A stretch of DNA of 64,000 nt, taken from contig NC_014655.1 of NCBI RefSeq assembly GCF_000166395.1, forward strand, positions 2,790,001 to 2,854,000. Direction: 5' to 3'. This DNA comes from Leadbetterella byssophila DSM 17132 (GTDB lineage Bacteria > Bacteroidota > Bacteroidia > Cytophagales > Spirosomataceae). The position numbers were made by a program, and so were the translations under genes. Under the pieces are notes generated by a model. It saw nothing but the letters and a program-made list of their open reading frames with translations, did not search any database and was not told where the DNA came from. Positions 12,512 to 24,081 of the stretch are shown piece after piece (positions within the stretch are counted from its first letter, which is position 1; every line of letters starts with the position of its first letter).

Positions 12512-14228
12512 CGTATTTTTTCTTTTTTTATTTTTTTCTATCCAAAGAATGAGCGCTCAGGAGCTTAAGATCGCTTTCCTGTCTGACATTCACTTCCATG
12601 ACATTCACCCTAAATTCGAAGATATAGATTTCCAAGGCGTCCCACATCCCACTACCGGTAAACCCGTCCTGGCTAGGACCATGAGTGCCCAACTTCGTTC
12701 TACCCGCATCTTCAATGAAAACTATTTTGCCTTTAAAGCAGCCTTAGAAGATTTGGTAGCCAAAGGCATTAAACTCGTAGCCCTTCCCGGCGACTATACT
12801 GATGACGGACAAGCTTATAATCTACGTGGACTAAAGGAAATACTTCAAGATTACACCGAAAAGCACGGAATGCGTTTCCTCATCACCACCGGAAATCATG
12901 ACCCCCTGGGTCCGTTCCGTCAAGATGGGGGAAAGAGTGACTTCTTAGGAGCAGATGGCAAGCCATTTGGCATCTATAGTAATGGAAATAAAGGCATCAT
13001 CACCCAGGATATTGCCCCAAGTGGCTACGAAGAGATTCTAGAAACCCTTAGTCCTTTCGGTTTTATGCCAGACCCTTCCTATCTGCTTTGGTCCACCCCC
13101 TTTGATCAAGCTTTAGAAGAGCCATACCAGTATGAAAAAGCCAAATTCTCCTCCGCCTACACCAGAAGGATGTACGAAATAGAGCCTGGGTTCTGGGTAC
13201 CGGACCTTAGCTACCTGGTAGAACCTGTAGAAGGCGTTTGGATTCTTGCATTGGATGGAAATACTTATGTTCCAAAGTCCAAGGAAGGAGATCCCTATGA
13301 CCCTAAATCGTACAAAACAGCCGGAATAGGATATAACGAGGTCTTAAGCCATAAACAACATCTCATCACTTGGATCAAAAAGGTAAGTCGGGAGGCGAAA
13401 AAGAGAGGGAAGATCCTATTAACCTTTTCCCACTATCCGGCTATAGATTATAATGATGAAGCGAATGCAGAGATAAGCCAATTACTAGGACCTACCAAAT
13501 GGCAATTGCACCGCAGTCCGCGAGAAGAAGTAGCAGAAGTCCTTTCTCAGGCTGGAGTACAGTTGCATTTCGGCGGTCACATGCATATCAATGATACAGG
13601 CATAAGAAAGTACCCAGACGGTAGGTTTCTAATCAATATACAGGTCCCTTCCCTAGCGGCTTATGTGCCGGCGTATAAGATCCTCAGCATTGAAAGCCCA
13701 CAGAGATTTAAAATCAGCACAGAAATCATAGAAGACGTAAAAGACTTTGACTATCTTTTCCCCCTTTATCAAAAGGAACTGGAAGCGAATAAAGAGAGCG
13801 GAAAAACCTGGAAAAAGGAAATTCTCAAGACTAAAACCTATAGAGAATTCATGTTATTCCATCTGAAGGAACTCGTCCGACTGCGTTATGTCTCTACAGA
13901 TTGGCCCAAAGAATACCTTGCAGAAGTTGAGCACTGGACCTCCAAAGACTGGTTTAAAGCTTTCAAGGTCAAATCTTCCCCAAGTTCCTGGACTACAGAA
14001 GACCTGCTCTTTGATCTGTACAAGTTCCAATCTGCCGATGAATTAGCCAAACGTGATATCCCTGCGAATCGCTGGAAAGACTACGAAAATATCTTTAAAG
14101 CACTGGAAAAGGCTGAAAAACCTGAACATCGCTGGCTATTCACCCTACTCCATAAACTGTCACACGGAGATCCGGCTGATGCCTTTTCAGTAAATTTGGA
14201 AACGCAGGAGGTTCAGAGAATGGATTAA
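12492..14228 (+). CDS. Exported calcineurin-like metallophosphoesterase
   Basis: I chose the ATG at 12492 over the one at 12462 because it gives a clean signal peptide ending in Ser-Ala-Gln near residue 23. The metal-binding motifs of the superfamily are present in order: SDIHFHD, GDYTDDG, TTGNHDPLGP, FSHYP and FGGHMHIND. A 578-residue product with a long C-terminal extension of unknown role results. The start lies inside the 3' end of the regulator gene (20-bp overlap), so the two are probably co-transcribed. This is unusual, since HTCS genes are commonly monocistronic. The substrate is unknown; a phosphodiester or phosphomonoester in the periplasm is the general expectation. Confidence 0.82.
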   Translation: MSKRTFSVFFLFLFFSIQRMSAQELKIAFLSDIHFHDIHPKFEDIDFQGVPHPTTGKPVLARTMSAQLRSTRIFNENYFAFKAALEDLVAKGIKLVALPGDYTDDGQAYNLRGLKEILQDYTEKHGMRFLITTGNHDPLGPFRQDGGKSDFLGADGKPFGIYSNGNKGIITQDIAPSGYEEILETLSPFGFMPDPSYLLWSTPFDQALEEPYQYEKAKFSSAYTRRMYEIEPGFWVPDLSYLVEPVEGVWILALDGNTYVPKSKEGDPYDPKSYKTAGIGYNEVLSHKQHLITWIKKVSREAKKRGKILLTFSHYPAIDYNDEANAEISQLLGPTKWQLHRSPREEVAEVLSQAGVQLHFGGHMHINDTGIRKYPDGRFLINIQVPSLAAYVPAYKILSIESPQRFKISTEIIEDVKDFDYLFPLYQKELEANKESGKTWKKEILKTKTYREFMLFHLKELVRLRYVSTDWPKEYLAEVEHWTSKDWFKAFKVKSSPSSWTTEDLLFDLYKFQSADELAKRDIPANRWKDYENIFKALEKAEKPEHRWLFTLLHKLSHGDPADAFSVNLETQEVQRMD

Positions 14229-14254
14229 CGGGACAGTAAAAAGCGTAACGGAAT

Positions 14255-16500
14255 TTTAACTAAAAATTAATAGTTTCGGAAGAATAAATACTAATGTTCC
14301 TTTGACCGAATTTTATGGTCCGTTTGAGCAAAGCGAAAGAGGACATCATAAAATTCATGTTTTTTTGCTACTTTCCGAACGGTCGGACCCTTGCGCCCAA
14401 AAAATATCAAGAAGAAAATTCATGTCTTTTAGTTTAAGGGGCGCTTCTTTTAATTAAAGTCCAGTTTTATCCTAATAGACGCTTCGCGGTTAACTAATAA
14501 TTAATACTTTCCTAAGAATAAATACTAATGTTCCTTTGACCGAATTTTATGGTCCGTTTGAGCGAAGCAAAAGAGGACATCATAAAATTCATGTTTTTTT
14601 GCTACTTTCCGAACGGTCGGACCCTGGCGCCAAAAAAGTATCAAGAAGAAAATTCATGTTTTTTTGCTACTTTCCGAACGGTCGGACCCTTGCGCCAAAA
14701 AAAGTATCAAGAAGAAAAATCATGTCTTTTAGCTTAAGAGGCGCTCCTTTTAAATAAAGTCCAGTTTTATCCTAATCAACGCTACTGGATTAACTAATAA
14801 TTAATAGTTTCGGAAGAATAAATACTAATGTTCCTTTGACCGAATTTTATGGTCCGTTTGAGCGTAGCGAAAGAGGACATCATAAAATTCATGTTTTTTT
14901 GCTACTTTCCGAACGGTCGGACCCTGGCGCCAAAAAAGTATCAAGAAGAAAATTCATGTTTTTTTGCTACTTTCCGAACGGTCGGACCCTTGCGCCAAAA
15001 AAAGTATCAAGAAGAAAAATCATGTCTTTTTAGCTTTAGGGGCGATTCTTGTGATTTAAATCAGTTTTATCCTAATAGACGCCACGCGATCAACTAATAA
15101 TTAATACTTTCCGAAGAATAAATACTAATGTTCCTTTGACCGAATTTTATGGTCCGTTTGAGCGTAGCGAAAGAGGACATCATAAAATTCATGTTTTTTG
15201 GTTACTTTTTTGTGCCAAAAAAGTAACAAGAAGAATATTCATGTTTTTTTGCTACTTTCCGAACGGTCGGACCCTTTGCGCCAAAAAAAGTAGAGAAAGA
15301 AAAACCATGTCTTTTTAGCTTTAGGGGCGATTCTTGTGATTTAAATCAGTTTTATCCTAATAGACGCCACGCGATCAACTAATAATTAATACTTTCCGAA
15401 GAATAAATACTAATGTTCCTTTGACCGAATTTTATGGTCCGTTTGAGCGTAGCGAAAGAGGACATCATAAAATTCATGTTTTTTGGTTACTTTCCGTAAG
15501 GACGGACCCTTGCTCCAAAAAAGTAACAAGAAGAATATTCATGTTTTTTGGTTACTTTCCGAACCGTCGGACCCTTGCGCCAAAAAAAGTAGAGAAAGAA
15601 AAATCATGTCTTTTTAGCTTAAGGGGCGATTCTTGTGATTTAAATCAGTTTTATCCTAATAGACGCCACGCGATCAACTAATAATTAATACTTTCCGAAG
15701 AATAAATACTAATGTTCCTTTGACCGAATTTTATGGTCCGTTTGAGCGAAGCGAAAGAGGACATCATAAAATTCATGTTTTTTTGCTACTTTCCGTAAGG
15801 TCGGACCCTTGCGCCAAAAAAAGTAGAGAAAGAAAAATCATGTCTTTTTAGCTTAAGGGGCGATTCTTGTGATTTAAATCAGTTTTATCCTAATAGACGC
15901 CACGCGATCAACTAATAATTAATACTTTCCGAAGAATAAATACTAATGTTCCTTTGACCGAATTTTATGGTCCGTTTGAGCGAAGCGAAAGAGGACATCA
16001 TAAAATTCATGTTTTTTTGCTACTTTTTTTGCGTCAAAAAAAGTAGAGAAAGAATATTCATGTTTTTTTGCTACTTTCCGAACGGTCGGACCCTTTGCGC
16101 CAAAAAAAGTAGAGAAAGAAAATCCATGTCTTTTAGCTTAAGAGGCGCTCCTTTTAAATAAAGTCCAGTTTTGTCCTAATAGACGCTTCGCGATTAACTA
16201 ATATTTAATAGTGTCGAAAGAATAAATACTAATGTTCCTTTGACCGAATTTTATGGTCCGTTTGAGCGAAGCGAAAGAGGACATCATAAAATTCATGTTT
16301 TTTGGTTACTTTTTTGCGTCAAAAAAGTAACAAGAAGAATATTCATGTTTTTTTGCTACTTTCCGAACGGTCGGACCCTGGCGCCAAAAAAGTATCAAGA
16401 AGAAAATTCATGTCTTTTAGCTTAAGAGGCGCTTCTTATAATTAAAGGCCAGTTTTATCCTAATCGACGCTACTGGATTAACTAATAATTAATACTTTCG
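14255..16500. repeat. Hairpin-repeat array 1 (eight units)
   Basis: Eight tandem copies of a composite unit occur with periods of roughly 234, 285 or 300 bp. The conserved large hairpin (H1) starts near 14308, 14542, 14842, 15142, 15427, 15726, 15960 and 16246. Each unit has four parts: an AT-rich leader (starting TAACTAATAATTAAT); hairpin H1 (GAATTTTATGGTCC pairing with GGAC-AT-CATAAAATTC); one or two shorter palindromes H2 of the CTACTTT/AAAGTAG type, each ending in ATTCATG; and a tail ending near CCTAATAGACGC. Two tail types occur and the number of H2 modules varies. Short open frames starting in H1 are carried by the repeat and are not convincing genes. Confidence 0.92.
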
Positions 16501-16674
16501 TGTCCTATTTGAGATTGTATAAGGATTTGATACCTCTTAGCTTTTGAAGCTAGGCGGAGGAACTACTATTTAAAGAGTAAATATTTAAGAATTGAATCCT
16601 TACTGTAAAAAAACACTTTAATAGAATAATAGAGGTAGTGAAGGAAAGCTTGCGAATTCCTTAGTAGTGCATCT

Positions 16675-16965
16675 TCAAAAATCAATTGAAATCTTAACCT
16701 TTCCTCCTAATCCTTTCTCAACAATATCATACAAGGTTTTTAAGGTAAGATTACTACCATTGTTCTCAATTTTTGAAATATATTCACGCTTCTTTCCCAC
16801 TGCCTCAGCTAATTCTGCTTGAGTTAGTTGCTTCTCTTCGCGAGCCTTCCGAAGAAGAAGTCCAACTTTGAATGATTCAAAATCCCTTTCAAGTTCCTCT
16901 CTCCTCAGGGTACCTCTTTTACCGTAGACTCGGTCTTTTACTTCTTTCCAGTTTTTAGTTTCCAT
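16675..16965 (-). CDS. higA: HigA-like XRE-family antitoxin
   Basis: This 96-residue protein has a helix-turn-helix of the XRE/Cro type in its middle: LLLRKAREEKQLTQAELAEA, then VGKKREYISKIENN. It starts 11 bp inside the end of the toxin gene, giving the toxin-first order that defines HigBA systems. The antitoxin would bind its toxin and repress the shared promoter. The pair stands alone between two repeat arrays, so it may be mobile cargo or may stabilise the region. The family call is secure; the gene name is by analogy. Confidence 0.85.
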   Translation of the reverse strand: METKNWKEVKDRVYGKRGTLRREELERDFESFKVGLLLRKAREEKQLTQAELAEAVGKKREYISKIENNGSNLTLKTLYDIVEKGLGGKVKISIDF

Positions 16966-17308
16966 TGTGTAACTTTTTTTGATTGTAATATTCCTGTTTA
17001 ATTTTAATAGCTCTATCTATTTCCTGCTTCGGGGTCTTTTGAGTCTTTTTTTGAAATCCAGTAGTTAAAACTACTAGCTGATCTCCGTCAAAAAAACAAA
17101 ACACCCTCCAAATATTTGAGCCCAATTGTATACGCGCCTCATACAGCCCATTACTGCCCTCTATATGCTTTAAATAGTTTGCAGGAATCCGCTCCAGCGT
17201 CTCAATTGCTTCAATTATTTTAAAAATCTTGTTTTGAACCTTTTCCTCTTGGCTTAGAAGAAATTCTTCAAAGTAATCTTTAAAGGCAATTACTGTGCGA
17301 ACTTTCAT
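16955..17308 (-). CDS. higB: HigB/RelE-like toxin (Gp49 family)
   Basis: The 117-residue protein is of typical length for Gp49/HigB-type toxins of the RelE superfamily. Visible features are the helical N-terminus, the LYEARIQLGSNIWRVFCFFDG strand pair, and the C-terminal LTTGFQKKTQKTPKQEI segment that usually carries catalytic basic residues. Such toxins cut mRNA on the ribosome. The gene precedes and overlaps the antitoxin gene. A near-palindrome directly upstream could be the autoregulatory operator. Confidence 0.87.
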   Translation of the reverse strand: MKVRTVIAFKDYFEEFLLSQEEKVQNKIFKIIEAIETLERIPANYLKHIEGSNGLYEARIQLGSNIWRVFCFFDGDQLVVLTTGFQKKTQKTPKQEIDRAIKIKQEYYNQKKLHNGN

Positions 17309-17310
17309 AA

Positions 17311-17331
17311 CAAAAGTAATTTATAAGTTAC
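17311..17331 (-). promoter_or_regulatory. Putative higBA promoter box and operator
   Basis: A -7-like box TACTTTTG (17318-17311, minus strand) ends 2 bp before the higB start codon. It overlaps a 16-bp near-palindrome, GTAATTTATAAGTTAC (17316-17331, 14 of 16 positions symmetric). This position suits a site where HigA would repress its own promoter. The overlap with the start codon means transcription might be leaderless, or that the true promoter is further upstream. Confidence 0.4.
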
Positions 17332-17381
17332 AATTTTTTACATTTAATTCCATTATTTTTTTCCTAAACCCTTATTTATGA

Positions 17382-17591
17382 ATTTTTTATCCCATTTTTA
17401 GCAAATTCAAATGGTTCCTTTTAGTAGATCTATTGGTTAAAGACTATTTTACTTATCCCACAGGTAACCCTCCAAACAAATTAAAATATAATACCACAGA
17501 ATATCAGACACTTGGAGACATTTATGATCATTTCTTATCTCAAAGTAAGATTATAAGGCAGGGCTTACTAAAAGCTTTCAGCTTTTGGTAA
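17382..17591 (+). pseudogene. Gene remnant without a start codon
   Basis: An open frame of 69 codons follows an in-frame TGA at 17379 and ends with TAA at 17589-17591, exactly where array 2 begins. It has no ATG, yet the amino-acid composition looks like real protein (for example VKDYFTYPTGNPPNK and YQTLGDIYDHFLSQSK). I do not recognise the family. It is best read as the 3' part of a gene cut at both ends when the repeats or their cargo moved. Confidence 0.4.
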
Positions 17592-18640
17592 GTAATAATT
17601 AATAGTTTCGGAAGAATAAATACTAATGATCCTTTGACCGAATTTTATGGTCCGTTTGAGCGAAGCGAAAGAGGACATCATAAAATTCATGTTTTTTTGC
17701 TACTTTTTTGCGCCAAAAAAGTACAGAAAGAATATTTATGTTTTTTTTTCTTAAGGTGCATTGCTTCAGATTTTTGTAGATTTTTATCCGAATCGCCCCT
17801 ACTTAATTAACTAATAATTAAAATTAAATAGTTTCGGAAGAATAAATACTAATGATCCTTTAATCGAATTTTAGAGGCCGTTCGAACGTAGTGAGAGAGG
17901 CCATTCTAAAATTCATGTTTTTTTGCTACTTTTTTGCGCCAAAAAAGTAGAGAAAGAATATTCATGTTTTTTGGTTACTTTCCGAACGGTCGGACCCTGG
18001 CGCCAAAAAAGTATCAAGAAGAAAATTCATGTCTTTTAGTTTAAGGGGCGCTTCTTTTAATTAAAGTCCAGTTTTATCCTAATAGACGCTACTGGATTAA
18101 CTAATAATTAATAGTTTCGGAAGAATAAATACTAATGTTCCTTTGACCGAATTTTATGGTCCGTTTGAGCGTAGCGAAAGAGGACATCATAAAATTCATG
18201 TTTTTTGGTTACTTTCCGTAAGGACGGACCCTTGCTCCAAAAAAGTAACAAGAAGAATATTCATGTTTTTTTGCTACTTTCCGAACGGTCGGACCCTGGC
18301 GCCAAAAAAGTATCAAGAAGAAAATTCATGTCTTTTAGTTTAAGGGGCGCTTCTTTTAATTAAAGTCCAGTTTTATCCTAATCGACGCTACTGGATTAAC
18401 TAATAATTAATAGTTTCGGAAGAATAAATACTAATGTTCCTTTGACCGAATTTTATGGTCCGTTTGAGCGAAGCGAAAGAGGACATCATAAAATTCATGT
18501 TTTTTTGCTACTTTTTTTGCGTCAAAAAAAGTAGAGAAAGAATATTCATGGTTTTTTGCTACTTTCCGAACGGTCGGACCCTTTGCGCCAAAAATAGTAG
18601 AGAAAGAAAATTCATGTTTTATAGCTTAAGTAGTGTTTCG
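17589..18640. repeat. Hairpin-repeat array 2 (four units)
   Basis: Four units of the composite repeat occur, with H1 starting near 17640, 17866, 18149 and 18448. The second unit carries a variant H1 (GAATTTTAGAGGCC pairing with GGCC-AT-TCTAAAATTC). Compared with the common form, three base pairs have changed on both arms while the 2-nt AT bulge is kept. The first unit contains a short H2 with an uninterrupted palindrome of CTACTTTTTTG type. The array ends with a decayed tail before the P-type ATPase gene. Confidence 0.9.
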
Positions 18641-18753
18641 CTAAGATCCGGTAATTCCGGAAGAAAATCTCCCACTATTTTAAACTATGGACTTCCCAAA
18701 AGCGGAGACAGTAGGTATAATCACCCGTAGGTTTTTATAACTGACTAAGGCAG

Positions 18754-21285
18754 TTATCCCCTATCAATAATTTTACCTTTTCCTTTAAATACCTTTGCAT
18801 TATTAGCTTTTGTACGCTTTATCCATTTGTACCCCTCAAACCATAACACTGATAAAGAAGCCGTTATAACTGAAAAACCTATTTCATTTATAGCTAAACT
18901 ATCTACTTTAAAGAAGTTGGACATCGCTGGTATGAACAAGATCATAAAGAGAATGATAAGCGTTAAACTGTTCACAGCTAGAAGTAACATATTCTTGTTC
19001 CTAAAGCTTTCAATTACACTATAATAGAAAGAACGATTCGTTAAGCTCAAAAGAACATTCGAAAAGATTAAGGTCGAGAAAACCATAGCCCTAGTTTTTT
19101 CTTCACTCCCCCCATTCTGGACGGTGTATTGATACATAAACAGTAGTCCACAGGTGATCACTAAACCTTGAATGATACTTATGCTCAGTTCCCTCCCATT
19201 CAAGAATGTATCTGTCATTTTCCTTGGCCCCTGCAGCATGGCGTTCTTCTCTATAGGTTCATTTTCGTACACTATAGAACAGGTTGGCCCCATCACTAAT
19301 TCTAAGAATATTACATGTACCGGGGTGAAAATCTGTGGAAATATCCAACCGAGAAATAATGGAATTGAAACCGTAAGTATAATAGGAATATGTATAGAAA
19401 TAATATATTGAACCGCTTTCTTAATATTAGAATATATCCTTCTTCCTGAAGCAATACCAATAATTAATTTGTTTAAATCATCATTAGTAAGTACTATCGA
19501 AGCCGCTGATTTGGCAATCTCCGTACCCTTATTCCCCATAGCTACGCCAATATCAGAAGCCTTCAAAGCTGGAGCGTCATTCACCCCATCTCCCACCATA
19601 GCCACAACCTCTCCCTCTTCTTTTAACGCTTTTACTATTTTTAATTTTGCTTCCGGATACATTCTAGAGAATAGTACATTTTCCTTCACTTTTCCTAGTA
19701 ACTCGCTACCCGAATAGGTCATTAAGTCTTTTCCATCAATAGCGCGGTCAGCATCCAAAATTCCGGCCTGCATAGATATGCTTTTTGCCGTGTCAGCGTT
19801 ATCGCCGGTGATCACTTTTACTTTTATACCTGCATCATAAATCTGCTTGAAAACGTCTTGAATTCCTTTTTTAGGCGGATCATAAAATACCACCAATCCT
19901 AGGAATACGAAAGGTAGGCTTTGTTGCTTTTCCGGAAATTCCTCTCCTTCAAAATGTGATTTTGCAACACCCAAAACCCGGTAGCCTTCCGAACCAAAAT
20001 CCCGGATCCATTTTCTAACCTTTTCTTTTTCTTCTTCAGAAAGCGTAGAAACCCGAAGGATAGCCTCTGGAGCACCTTTAGCTGCAATAATCCTTCTACT
20101 ATCTTCAACATTCTTGTAGATATGTGTCATCATTGGAGGTTTTCCCTCTAAAGGATATTCATAAATAAGGGAAAACTTTCCCCTTAGATCTTTCTTAGAC
20201 ATAGACGAATAAACCTCATGCAAAGTCTTCTCCATTGGATCAAAAGGCACTGGCTCACTGCTCCACATGGCATAGGATATCAATTCTGAGGTGACAGTAT
20301 CCCCAAATGTTTCATAAGTCTTATCAGAAGCATATTCATACAAATATTTCAATTGCATGATATTCTCTGTAATGGTTCCCGTTTTATCAGTACAGATCAC
20401 TGTAGTACTCCCTAGTGTCTCTACTACGGAGCTTTGCTTCACTATAATTCCTTCCTTCATCAACTTCCAAGATCCTAAAGCCATAAAGGTGGTAAAGGCA
20501 ACCGGAATTTCTTCAGGAAGTATAGACATGGCTAGAGTAAGACCGTTCAACAAACTTTCAAGAAGATTTCTGTTGTTGTAATAATGAACAGCACAAACAA
20601 GGAGAAATATAACAAGACCCACCACCGCCATGGTCTTAACAAACTTCCTGATTTGCTGTTGTAAAGGAGAATCCTCCTTTTCTATGGCCAACAAAGAGCT
20701 ACCAATCTTCCCAATTTTAGTTCCTATCCCTATTTCTTCTACTTCAAAAACGGCTATTCCAGATACTGTAATCGTACCCCCATAAACTTTATCTCCAATT
20801 CCCTTATATACAGATAAACTTTCGCCTGTTACAGATGATTCATTCACGGAAAAGTCAGTACTGTATACTATCCTCCCATCAGCATTAAGATACTTTCCTT
20901 CCTCTGTAAGACATAGATCTCCAATGACAATCTCATTTGTAGGAATTTGAACTACTTTCCCATTCCGAATGACAGAAGACAGTGGTTCGTTCAACTTTTC
21001 AAGAGCCTCCAAAGCTTTCTTACTTCTACTATCTTGATAAAATGATATCGCAGAAACGGCAACAATCGCAGCAAGCATAAATAATGCTTCTCCGTATTCT
21101 CCTATGAGCAGATATATTGCGGAAATGGCAAAAAGTAGGAGTAACATTGGCTCCTTAAGAATGTTTAATAGCAAAGCGAGTCCGCTACTCTTTTTGTGGC
21201 CCTCAATGCTGTTGTCTCCATGCTTTATCCGCGATTTTTCTACCTCAGTATTGTTTAGGCCTTTGAATTGATTAGGGACTTCCAT
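18754..21285 (-). CDS. Cation-transporting P-type ATPase (P2-like)
   Basis: The 843-residue protein starts with a cation-ATPase N-terminal domain. The actuator follows with VTGES, then the M4 motif PEEIPVA, the phosphorylation site CTDKTGT with Asp300, the KGAPEAIL nucleotide-binding motif, and the hinge MVGDGVNDAPALKASDIGVAMG. The C-terminal membrane bundle follows. All catalytic residues are present, so it should be functional. The layout is that of P2 calcium/monovalent-cation pumps, but PEEIPVA differs from the SERCA-like PEGLPA, so the ion is uncertain. It stands alone between two repeat arrays on the opposite strand to the upstream PUL regulator, which suggests acquired cargo. Confidence 0.88.
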   Translation of the reverse strand: MEVPNQFKGLNNTEVEKSRIKHGDNSIEGHKKSSGLALLLNILKEPMLLLLFAISAIYLLIGEYGEALFMLAAIVAVSAISFYQDSRSKKALEALEKLNEPLSSVIRNGKVVQIPTNEIVIGDLCLTEEGKYLNADGRIVYSTDFSVNESSVTGESLSVYKGIGDKVYGGTITVSGIAVFEVEEIGIGTKIGKIGSSLLAIEKEDSPLQQQIRKFVKTMAVVGLVIFLLVCAVHYYNNRNLLESLLNGLTLAMSILPEEIPVAFTTFMALGSWKLMKEGIIVKQSSVVETLGSTTVICTDKTGTITENIMQLKYLYEYASDKTYETFGDTVTSELISYAMWSSEPVPFDPMEKTLHEVYSSMSKKDLRGKFSLIYEYPLEGKPPMMTHIYKNVEDSRRIIAAKGAPEAILRVSTLSEEEKEKVRKWIRDFGSEGYRVLGVAKSHFEGEEFPEKQQSLPFVFLGLVVFYDPPKKGIQDVFKQIYDAGIKVKVITGDNADTAKSISMQAGILDADRAIDGKDLMTYSGSELLGKVKENVLFSRMYPEAKLKIVKALKEEGEVVAMVGDGVNDAPALKASDIGVAMGNKGTEIAKSAASIVLTNDDLNKLIIGIASGRRIYSNIKKAVQYIISIHIPIILTVSIPLFLGWIFPQIFTPVHVIFLELVMGPTCSIVYENEPIEKNAMLQGPRKMTDTFLNGRELSISIIQGLVITCGLLFMYQYTVQNGGSEEKTRAMVFSTLIFSNVLLSLTNRSFYYSVIESFRNKNMLLLAVNSLTLIILFMILFIPAMSNFFKVDSLAINEIGFSVITASLSVLWFEGYKWIKRTKANNAKVFKGKGKIIDRG

Positions 21286-21383
21286 GTCTTTTACTTAACG
21301 TTTCATTCAAAGTTATTAGATTTTTTATGAATCCAACTTATGATCCACCGACCCACATGAAAATCTAGTAATATTTGATCATT

Positions 21384-22905
21384 AAAAACTAATAGTGTCG
21401 GAACAATAGCATTTGTAGGCATTTTAGCTTTATAGGCAGCCCATCTGATTTAAGTCCGCTATTATCCTAATAGACGCTTCTGGATTAACTAATATTTAAT
21501 ACCTAATAATTTCATAAGAATAAATAATAATGATCCTTTGATCGAATTTTAGAGGCCGTTCGAACGTAGTGAGAGAGGCCATTCTAAAATTCATGTTTTT
21601 TTTGCTACTTTCCGAACGGTCGGACCCTTTGCGCCAAAAAAAGTAGAGAAAGAATATTCATGTCTTTTAGCTTAAGAGGCGCTCCTTTTAAATAAAGTCC
21701 AGTTTTGTCCTAATAGACGCTTCGCGATTAACTAATATTTAATAGTGTCGAAAGAATAAATACTAATGTTCCTTTGACCGAATTTTATGGTCCGTTTGAG
21801 CGAAGCGAAAGAGGACATCATAAAATTCATGTTTTTTGGTTACTTTTTTGCGCCAAAAAAGTAACAAGAAGAATATTCATGTTTTTTTGCTACTTTCCGA
21901 ACGGTCGGACCCTTGCACCAAAAAAGTAACAAGAAGAATATTCATGTCTTTTACCTTAAGGGGCGCTTCTTTTAATTAAAGTCCAGTTTTATCCTAATAG
22001 ACGCTTCGCGATTAACTAATATTTAATAGTGTCGAAAGAATAAATACTAATGTTCCTTTGACCGAATTTTATGGTCCGTTTGAGCGAAGCGAAAGAGGAC
22101 ATCATAAAATTCATGTTTTTTGGTTACTTTCCGAACGGTCGGACCCTTGCTCCAAAAAAGTAACAAGAAGAATATTCATGTTTTTTTGCTACTTTCCGAA
22201 CGGTCGGACCCTTGCGCCAAAAAAGTAGAGAAAGAAAATTCATGTCTTTTAGCTTAAGAGGCGCTCCTTTTAAATAAAGTCCAGTTTTATCCTAATAGAC
22301 GCTTCGCGATTAACTAATATTTAATAGTGTCGAAAGAATAAATACTAATGTTCCTTTGACCGAATTTTATGGTCCGTTTGAGCGAAGCGAAAGAGGACAT
22401 CATAAAATTCATGTTTTTTGGTTACTTTCCGAACGGTCGGACCCTTGCTCCAAAAAAGTAACAAGAAGAATATTCATGTTTTTTTGCTACTTTCCGAACG
22501 GTCGGACCCTTGCGCCAAAAAAGTAGAGAAAGAAAATTCATGTCTTTTAGCTTAAGAGGCGCTCCTTTTAAATAAAGTCCAGTTTTATCCTAATAGACGC
22601 TTCGCGATTAACTAATATTTAATAGTGTCGAAAGAATAAATACTAATGTTCCTTTGACCGAATTTTATGGTCCGTTTGAGCGAAGCGAAAGAGGACATCA
22701 TAAAATTCATGTTTTTTGGTTACTTTTTTGCGCCAAAAAAGTAACAAGAAGAATATTCATGTTTTTTTGCTACTTTCCGAACGGTCGGACCCTTTGCGCC
22801 AAAAAAAGTAGAGAAAGAAAATTCATGTCTTTTAGCTTAAGGGGCGCTCCTTTTAATTAAAGTCCAGTTTTATCCTAATAAACACTTCGCGATTAATTAA
22901 TAATT
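21384..22905. repeat. Hairpin-repeat array 3 (five units)
   Basis: A decayed tail (21384-21500) is followed by five units with H1 near 21544, 21780, 22064, 22362 and 22660. The first H1 is the GAGGCC variant also found in array 2; the others are the common form. The units beginning at 22064 and 22362 appear identical over their 298-bp period, which points to recent tandem duplication. H2 modules alternate between the GTTAC/GTAAC and CTAC/GTAG forms. Together with array 2 this array brackets the P-type ATPase gene. Confidence 0.92.
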
Positions 22906-22989
22906 TCGGAATCATTAGTATTATTTAGGGCAGTATTTTGGCCATTTAAATACTAAATGTTCTTAAATTTTTAATCCTTAGTTTTTAGT

Positions 22990-23012
22990 CCAAAAAGCCA
23001 AAGGCTTTTTGG
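22990..23012. terminator. Perfect hairpin downstream of the broken regulator gene
   Basis: CCAAAAAGCC and GGCTTTTTGG form a perfect 10-bp stem with a 3-nt loop, 25 bp beyond the original stop of the LytTR response regulator. There is no strong T-run on either strand, so it may be the old 3' terminator of that operon or an unrelated palindrome. It resembles the imperfect stem at about 17570-17591. Confidence 0.4.
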
Positions 23013-23036
23013 TAATCCCTTCCTTAAATATTAAGT

Positions 23037-23127
23037 TTAAGAACTCAGTATCTTAGATTCAAATCTATCAAAAAGAGCCGCCCTATATGTCCTGCCTATG
23101 GGTATTCTCTGCTTCACATATCTGTCT
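23037..23127 (-). pseudogene. C-terminal remnant of LytTR response regulator
   Basis: Read on the minus strand, this segment encodes DRYVKQRIPIGRTYRAALF followed by DRFESKILSS and a TAA at 23037-23039. That is the usual end of a LytTR DNA-binding domain, including the IPIGRTYR-type strand. The matching front part of the gene lies on the other side of the IS3 element and stops early. This fragment is therefore the detached 3' end of the same gene. A few codons are unaccounted for at the junction. Confidence 0.8.
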
Positions 23128-23163
23128 TAAACGCAATTACTTGGACACTATTTTTAATTTATT

Positions 23164-24081
23164 TCACCAATTCGGATCAATTTTTACACCAATTGATTCG
23201 AGGAATTTTCTAGGGGACTTATAGTGAAGACCGCCATGTATTCTTTCGAAATTATAGAATTTTTTCCATCTTATCATTACTTGTTTAAATTCTTGTAGGC
23301 TTTCAAATTCAAATCGTTGACATACAGCACTTTCCAGAATTGAATGGTAGGCTTCTATATGTCCATTCTGTTGAGGTGTTGCCGGTTTTGTAAATTCCTG
23401 AGTTATACCTTTTTGTTTTAGATATTCTTGAACTATTAAAGCTTCGAATTGTGAGCCATTATCGTTTCTTACTATAAATTGCTTTGGCATCGGATAAGTT
23501 TGTAAAATTTGTTCAAATAGATTTATTACATCTTCAGATTTAATAGAATTTGCGATGTATTGTCCCAATTGCCATCTCGAAAAAACATCCAAAATTGTCA
23601 GTACTTGCGCATTTGTGCGTTTTCCTTGGATATATACATATTTAATATCAAATTCTAGGAATGCAAATTCTCTTTGTACAATGGGAACGAGTTCTTTTAC
23701 CCAGTTCCTACTTATTCTCTTGGTATTACTGCGTTGAAATTTTAATAAATTGTTTTCCTTCATGAGCTTATAGGTTCTATAAGCCCCAATTCTCAATCCC
23801 TTTTCTTGGTTTAAATAGCGGTAGGTTTTATAATACCCATAATCCACAAATTCGCCCTCCAGAAGTGTTTTAGTTTCTTGTAAAATATAATCCATATCAA
23901 ACCTATTATTTTCCATATCATATACATAACCTGAGGCCCTTTTCCCCGGTTTTGTACCTGTAGAAATGTAATAGTAGCTGCTTCGAGGTAAATCTACATG
24001 CTTTAATACTAGATATTTAGGCCTCCCTTGCTCTAGAAATTCGTCAACTACCTGGATTTTTATTTCTTTAGAGATTGACTT
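23164..24081 (-). CDS. IS3-family transposase OrfB (integrase core), expressed by -1 frameshift
   Basis: The frame opens in the -1 register at the slippery run A8G (24087-24079) near the end of OrfA and continues to 23164, giving about 305 residues. The N-terminal part (KYLVLKHVDLPRSSYYY) is the usual start of IS3 OrfB. The catalytic DDE residues are visible in FDIKYVYI, NDNGSQFEA and QQNGHIEAYH. An internal ATG at 23916 exists but lies after the conserved N-terminus. A fused OrfAB of about 403 residues would be the active transposase. Confidence 0.9.
   Translation of the reverse strand, partial: KSISKEIKIQVVDEFLEQGRPKYLVLKHVDLPRSSYYYISTGTKPGKRASGYVYDMENNRFDMDYILQETKTLLEGEFVDYGYYKTYRYLNQEKGLRIGAYRTYKLMKENNLLKFQRSNTKRISRNWVKELVPIVQREFAFLEFDIKYVYIQGKRTNAQVLTILDVFSRWQLGQYIANSIKSEDVINLFEQILQTYPMPKQFIVRNDNGSQFEALIVQEYLKQKGITQEFTKPATPQQNGHIEAYHSILESAVCQRFEFESLQEFKQVMIRWKKFYNFERIHGGLHYKSPRKFLESIGVKIDPNW

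Follow-up and report, generated by a model that had tools for sequence, protein, structure and literature searches.

The window analysed here is a 64,000-nucleotide stretch of the Leadbetterella byssophila DSM 17132 genome (one contig, NC_014655.1, 4,059,653 bp), and between positions 14308 and 22708 it carries, on the plus strand, 17 copies of a 49-nucleotide (nt) hairpin that we term H1 (15 of type A and 2 of type B). An earlier note on this DNA, made from the letters alone, had described these 15 copies and the two variants at 17866 and 21544; all were found, with the arms as it had given them. In type A, the arms are GAATTTTATGGTCC and GGAC-AT-CATAAAATTC, and in type B, they are GAATTTTAGAGGCC and GGCC-AT-TCTAAAATTC. 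A type A hairpin consists of a 10-bp outer stem, an AT bulge in the right arm, a 4-bp stem, a core with G.A and T.G oppositions, and a short upper stem-loop. Genome-wide, we counted 48 H1 copies at eight places (41 of type A, 7 of type B), all of them tandem arrays, and a looser arm pattern run over the whole genome detected no further H1 outside the arrays, with zero matches for the reversed control.

The units of the arrays have a fixed order of parts, namely, a lead (mostly ending in AATAAATACTAATGTTCCTTTGACC), H1, a T-run, H2 hairpins (0 to 5 per unit by pattern search, mostly 1 or 2), and a tail. Spacing from one H1 to the next was 226 to 304 bp in 32 of 40 cases genome-wide, and the stretches between H1 copies are themselves repeated. 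The statistics table of the L. byssophila genome paper lists three clustered regularly interspaced short palindromic repeats (CRISPR), a count that may include H1 arrays (PMC3072089). The coordinates of the features are collected in Table 1.

TABLE 1 Features of the H1 arrays and their surroundings (positions are those of the window; loci of relatives are given by their identifiers)
Feature	Position or locus	Strand
Array segment 1, 8 units (lead ..AATAAATACTAATGTTCCTTTGACC, H1, at least one H2, tail)	14255..16500	+
Array segment 2, 4 units; H1 at 17640, 17866 (type B), 18149, 18448	17590..18640	+
Array segment 3, 5 units; H1 at 21544 (type B), 21780, 22064, 22362, 22660	21380..22905	+
Typical type A H1	15726..15774	+
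Type B H1 with five compensated pairs relative to type A	17866..17914	+
Type B H1, second copy of the window	21544..21592	+
Short H2 hairpin (example), 3' of H1 and T-run	16304..16334	+
Long H2 hairpin (example) with 16-nt palindromic insert CCGAACGGTCGGACCC	16355..16399	+
Toxin-antitoxin-like pair between segments 1 and 2, outside the element	16675..17308	-
P-type cation ATPase between segments 2 and 3, outside the element	18754..21285	-
Second hairpin class (type II) in relatives	L196, L199, L091, L044, L127, L141, L046	

Types A and B differ by compensated base pairs

The two types differ at 11 of 49 positions, and 10 of these lie in stems, where they form five compensated pairs: 9-41, 10-40, 12-36, 18-30 (T-A to C-G), and 21-27 (G-C to A-T). 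The eleventh difference (position 24) is a loop position that also differs between type A copies. The earlier note had correctly named the first three double changes and had missed the two in the upper stem; its constant AT bulge is borne out. Its observation was right and understated. When 11 substitutions were placed at random (200,000 trials), five compensated pairs were obtained in none of the trials, and all pairs remained standard in 9.

The note had also proposed a covariation check on genome-wide copies. The genome contains 9 distinct H1 sequences. All 171 of their pair cells were standard, compared to 93.6% in shuffles (0 of 500 reached 100%), and 5 pairs were changed on both sides, compared to 2.1 in shuffles (5 or more in 8 of 500); pair types were no more numerous than in the shuffles (8 versus 8.0). 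Of the remaining single changes, C22T, A31G, and A43G produce T-G pairs, and G23A, G28A, and A33T are at unpaired positions. Predicted RNA folds of A and B are identical (-16.4 and -19.6 kcal/mol), and the DNA folds of both are near -9 kcal/mol, with B lacking the two topmost pairs. Since all B copies share a single set of changes, the compensation inside the genome represents one or a few events, not seven independent ones, and the relatives provide more independent evidence of pairing than this contrast does.

H1 is one form of a family of hairpins with a nearly invariant core and variable stems

A search with the whole unit against 58 other genomes yielded no full relatives and short H2-like matches in 6. 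Reading of the H2-like places in the same genus revealed a diverged element with the identical order of parts. Its core pattern, GTCCGTT..AGAGGATCAT, was present in 7 of 150 genomes of the host family (which we take to be Spirosomaceae), all of the same genus, with 0 for the reversed control, and a stricter pattern gave 41 stretches among named genomes (Lacihabitans species, metagenome-assembled genomes [MAGs] named Leadbetterella or Bacteroidetes, and one MAG named Spirosoma). A covariance model, R1, was built from 29 elements of the relatives and no copies from the L. byssophila genome. Searched against the array stretches, R1 recovered 48 of 48 H1 copies (E values from 1e-7 to 0.008). In whole-genome searches, it gave matches in 10 of 101 family genomes and 3 of 36 genera (host included) and, at an E value of 0.001, in no further genomes among 118 of the order; these searches were strictly filtered (1 of 48 host copies was reported) and would miss short H1-like forms, so that this distribution is a lower bound.

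In the 29 aligned elements of the relatives, whose structure was derived from the same alignment and whose kinship was only partly controlled for, 97.4% of pair cells were standard, compared to 79.2% in shuffles (0 of 500), with 155 double-change cells compared to 47.4 (0 of 500) and 17 of 29 pairs doubly changed compared to 14.0 (2 of 500). Slid structures scored far worse. These 29 were drawn from 33 element windows, four of which (L055, L063, L077, and one of the two in L080) were excluded for an outer stem interrupted by small inserts; they were restored in a later set of 119 matches, which was reduced to 64 distinct elements (65 when counted by genome) by removing duplicates and matches shorter than 110 nt other than L120. 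The upper stem of L120, which lies in a different genome of the genus, is shortened as in H1, and L120 thereby links the long and short forms.

Across the family, the core (CCGTT/AGAGG with a bulge, AT or CAT) hardly varies and lies between two stems that vary yet mostly stay paired. The G.A opposition and the bulge persist in the aligned copies of the relatives, the core and the flanking chassis are conserved at the sequence level, and two core wobbles are conserved in 62 and 55 of the 64 elements (alignment fitted to the model). The same 64 elements have 23 different outer-arm strings, and these types cluster by genome, with 57 identical within-genome pairs versus 18.3 in shuffles (0 of 2,000). 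A literature search of titles and abstract openings, mostly of journals that require no subscription, found no description of the element.

Paired changes at orthologous loci

Ten pairs of elements had matching flanks; one consisted of neighbours within one genome, leaving nine pairs at five loci. At these loci, with flanks 85 to 94% alike and one genome pair each, 3, 3, 2, 1, and 2 of the 13 inner pairs were doubly changed, and all of these pairs keep Watson-Crick pairing. Double changes were also found in the outer stems at two loci (3 of 10 and 1 of 10 pairs, Watson-Crick pairing kept) and at none of the pairs at two others; at the fifth, the outer stem is interrupted by inserts and was left unscored. 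A further orthologous pair was uninformative, its intergenic region being 96 to 100% alike. The claim of the earlier note that pairing rather than sequence is conserved thus extends beyond the window, to the double-change cells of the 29 relatives and to these five loci.

One slot with similar flanks is filled differently from genome to genome: downstream of a gene that is presumably ligA, G003 and G004 carry the element described above (type I), G006 has a second hairpin class (type II) within a chassis of similar layout, and neither class is present in G001.

H2 hairpins, small inserts, and other hairpin classes

The variable pair of H2 was Watson-Crick in 61 of 82 scored copies. Palindromic inserts of 16 nt (e.g., ACGGTTGGCCGCTGCC) were observed within stems or loops, after the T-run in a comparison of L073 with L126, and in H2 copies. 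Two insert forms are present in the L. byssophila genome, CCGAACGGTCGGACCC and CCGTAAGGACGGACCC; they are distinguished by one compensated pair and one base of the loop. One orthologous pair shows the exact insertion of a small palindrome.

The second hairpin class, with the core CTGTTTGA..GAGTT, occurs in a similar chassis of T-run and H2 in relatives of the genus and, by eye, also in G030. In G037, a genome from another family of the order, a larger multi-stem repeat (L042 and L048 to L053) has a T-run and H2-like hairpin of similar kind at its end; the copies inspected closely resemble one another. These G037 matches were rejected by eye as members of the H1 family, being a different, larger element that has only the T-run and H2 in common with it.

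Gene context

Among the relatives, 43 copies were placed with crude calls of open reading frames (ORFs), and at most 1 lies within a predicted ORF. The upstream gene is co-oriented with the element in 20 of the 43 and the downstream gene in 32. In L. byssophila, 7 of the 8 arrays are 3' of a co-oriented gene, one of which encodes an intron reverse transcriptase. The neighbours of the arrays have no common function and include genes for SRP54, pyruvate kinase, EF-Tu, a response regulator, cobalamin adenosyltransferase, two group II intron reverse transcriptases, and transposases. The group II intron reverse transcriptase/maturase genes adjoin two of the eight arrays (L033:5369-6817 and L037:6146-7132).

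In the window, the toxin-antitoxin-like pair (a helix-turn-helix-like protein at 16675-16965, named by eye, and a Gp49/HigB-like protein at 16955-17308, identified by Pfam) and the P-type ATPase sit between array segments of the same orientation, as if they had been inserted into the array or captured by it. An integron-like array, a possibility prompted by these genes between the segments, was rejected: none of 10 genomes of the genus had an integron integrase above the TIGR02249 cut-off. A tyrosine recombinase that resembles integron integrases, with an internal stop and a score below the curated cut-off, is encoded at genome positions 1086486-1087300 (L219).

Search for partner enzymes and mobile carriers

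Our earlier note had stated that no repeat-processing gene is adjacent and that a partner related to the repetitive extragenic palindromic (REP)-associated tyrosine transposases (RAYTs) or IS200 might be encoded elsewhere in the genome. The first statement stands for RAYT-type enzymes; an ORF with an IS3-like integrase core is nearby (23164-23916), with no sign linking it to H1. The second gained no support from the loci searched. The L. byssophila genome encodes two Y1 proteins (IS200/RAYT type), and 51 matches were obtained in 8 of 9 relatives. Searches with R1 around both host proteins and 28 of the 51 matches (32 loci, 30 matches) gave four weak hits (E values of 0.008 to 0.41), none of them convincing on reading; the best is located among other repeats beside its gene. 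Other palindromes were seen by eye at 7 of the 8 Y1 loci whose flanks were read, and the palindromes associated with the YIHMNP proteins examined differ from H1. That H1 is a REP element mobilised by a RAYT is therefore very improbable in our estimate. The test was worthwhile because Bacteroidetes RAYTs of subclass 2.6 are described as carrying atypical structures (PMC6006769), which favours this explanation, as does the presence of the Y1 proteins themselves; the results at the Y1 loci and the lack of a GT[AG]G foot in H1 speak against it.

As for mobile carriers, viral contigs held no exact pattern match, and one unit used as the query gave no match among plasmids and phages; a very permissive plasmid search returned two short matches of 34 and 25 bases.

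Wobble pairs and transcript signals

Under selection for a structured RNA, G-U should outnumber A-C; this is not clearly seen, which leaves the RNA reading without support from this side. In the model-fitted alignment of the 64 elements, the 1,454 stem cells outside the core (script pairs 10-15 were left out) comprised 1,374 Watson-Crick, 15 G-U, 11 A-C, and 54 other cells. On these counts, the near-equal rarity of G-U and A-C speaks for DNA palindromy over RNA, and we read the element as a folded DNA strand with pairing arms and a recognised core.

Searches for transcript signals gave little. No Rfam model reached its gathering score in the window at 13800-23400 (best E value, 0.24) or at 10 loci of the relatives (best E value, 0.2), and a known RNA family was thus rejected for the stretches searched. 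Between 14200 and 18700, promoter-like signals were not in excess in a scan of the sigma-70 type, which is poorly suited to the phylum, and two intrinsic terminators were found versus 3.7 expected, neither at H1 (loops of 3 to 8 only). H1 as an intrinsic terminator was rejected for lack of enrichment in the stretch scanned.

The earlier note had concluded that a folded RNA or single-stranded DNA is under selection. Of the two molecules, RNA gains no support from the G-U and A-C counts or the Rfam result, and a DNA strand is the one we favour; selection itself is not proven, because replication template switching can produce compensated pairs (PMC8794818).

DISCUSSION

In our view, H1 is the form taken in L. 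byssophila by a family of hairpin DNA elements that are mostly intergenic and belong to the Leadbetterella/Lacihabitans clade. The family is similar in kind to REP sequences, enterobacterial repetitive intergenic consensus (ERIC) sequences, and other non-autonomous intergenic repeats, and its members would be recognised as folded DNA; we hold this account tentatively and put it a little below an even chance. The family appears to be new and is filed under intergenic palindromic repeats. We do not class it as REP because the GT[AG]G foot is absent and no RAYT was found alongside at the loci searched. Beyond the stems and core described above, its established features include the 3' chassis of T-run and H2, the dispersed copies in the relatives, and the 48 tandem copies in L. 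byssophila. The element is probably recognised by its shape. It would be read as a folded DNA strand, either single-stranded or in a cruciform, by a factor sensing the core and the shape, and this putative factor would tolerate many arm sequences provided that the arms pair; we argue for recognition because the asymmetric core remains uncorrected. Within a genome, copies may spread or replace each other; this would account for the clustering of arm types by genome and for the presence of different hairpin classes in one slot in different species. The L. byssophila arrays would then grow by unequal recombination between units.

Several results count against this account. At the five orthologous loci, 5 one-sided inner changes stand beside the 11 double ones, and two of the nine orthologous comparisons have no stem change at all. 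Neither a transposition event nor a target duplication nor an autonomous copy was found, the flanks of the slot in G001, G003, G004, and G006 are too diverged to define the element ends that a comparison with MITEs (terminal inverted repeats and target-site duplication) requires, and no partner emerged among the Y1 enzymes examined and no carrier among the viral contigs, plasmids, and phages. The number of pair types in the relatives was not above that of the shuffles (34 versus 32.9). The comparison of G-U with A-C stands without an RNA positive control. Some observations fit RNA better: the wobbles of the core are strand-specific, all three of the independent one-sided changes in stems of this genome give T-G on the plus strand (cases that prove little), and the co-orientation of the downstream gene in the relatives would fit a leader role and is not required of a neutral mobile element. 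Because the orthologous loci show partial rather than whole-stem change, we have weighed the folded-DNA account lower and template switching higher.

A structured RNA, in which H1 and the T-run form a small RNA or leader, the core binds a protein or target, and RNA pairing is selected, is unlikely in our view. The strong covariation, the RNA fold predicted alike for both types, the T-run after H1, the G-U and G.A oppositions of the core (favourable on one strand only), and the position of 32 of the 43 relatives' copies 5' of a co-oriented gene would all suit it. Set against these are the scarcity of G-U outside the core, hardly commoner than A-C, the absence of an Rfam family at threshold and of any promoter-like or terminator-like excess at 14200-18700, and an inconstant relation to genes, with most arrays following a co-oriented gene and the relatives' copies tending to precede one.

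Template switching, which would copy arm onto arm with no recognition of the hairpin, is a serious rival to the folded-DNA account as the source of the compensation, even if as a complete explanation it seems to us just as unlikely as RNA. The mechanism is published: replication template switching makes compensatory changes in single events (PMC8794818). It accords with the rarity of G-U intermediates, with several neighbouring pairs changing together, and with the compensated pair in the small inserts and the less strict H2. It does not account for the bulge, G.A, and T.G between the stems, which stay uncorrected (with the wobbles kept in 55 and 62 of the 64 elements), nor for the sequence conservation of core and flanking chassis, and it leaves copy number and the clustering of arms by genome unexplained. 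Template switching may be the way in which the arms change.

About as unlikely is a wider scheme, a Cytophagales superfamily of shape-recognised DNA hairpins (types I and II, with a common GTT..GAG-like core and the T-run/H2 chassis) in which modules would be exchanged in fixed slots, stems changed in complementary pairs, and a non-HUH enzyme would act. Least probable of all is a short peptide gene (..FYGPFERSERGHHKIH..) with synonymous third-position changes: 8 of the 11 A/B differences do occupy third positions of codons in a single frame with the FERSERG stretch constant (17866 versus 15726), a bias that is probably a consequence of hairpin symmetry, which gives most partner positions the same phase and leaves only six independent changes, and peptide coding was rejected since reading frames are not maintained (a stop interrupts each of the 7 B copies two codons into H1, downstream frames vary from unit to unit, and the relatives' elements read have different inner sequences).

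Compensatory changes are usually taken as evidence of functional RNA. The H1 family presents them in repeated DNA, with dense compensation, few G-U pairs, and an uncorrected asymmetric core, and can thereby separate causes that are normally confounded, namely, RNA selection, DNA hairpin recognition, and template-switch mutation; the five loci with orthologous flanks serve as natural replicates. Should the core be recognised by a protein, this would represent a new mechanism for reading or moving bacterial repeats.

Comparison with known systems

Like the REP/REPIN elements associated with RAYTs (TnpA-REP), H1 elements are short intergenic palindromes, and they share with them bulges (present in some REPs), many copies per genome, and types that vary from genome to genome. 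They differ in the missing 5' GT[AG]G foot (the 48 copies are preceded by GACC, AATC, or GATC, and no foot was found in the relatives' elements read), in that no RAYT flanked by an H1-type element was found at the Y1 loci searched, in the confinement of the L. byssophila copies to tandem arrays, and in conserving an internal core where REP conserves the foot. The attC sites of integrons are likewise bulged hairpins of a single strand, in which the arms vary but stay complementary and the tip also varies; unlike them, the H1 family has copies dispersed on both strands and no cassette-like layout in the 12 regions of relatives that were mapped. ERIC sequences, compared here in general layout, are imperfect intergenic palindromes of one to two hundred bases with small internal inserts, and H1 is distinguished by stems that vary around a fixed core. 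The template-switched RNA hairpins of PMC8794818 share with H1 the multi-base compensatory changes, whereas the stems of H1 stand in repeated, mostly intergenic DNA and enclose a conserved core that has stayed uncorrected.

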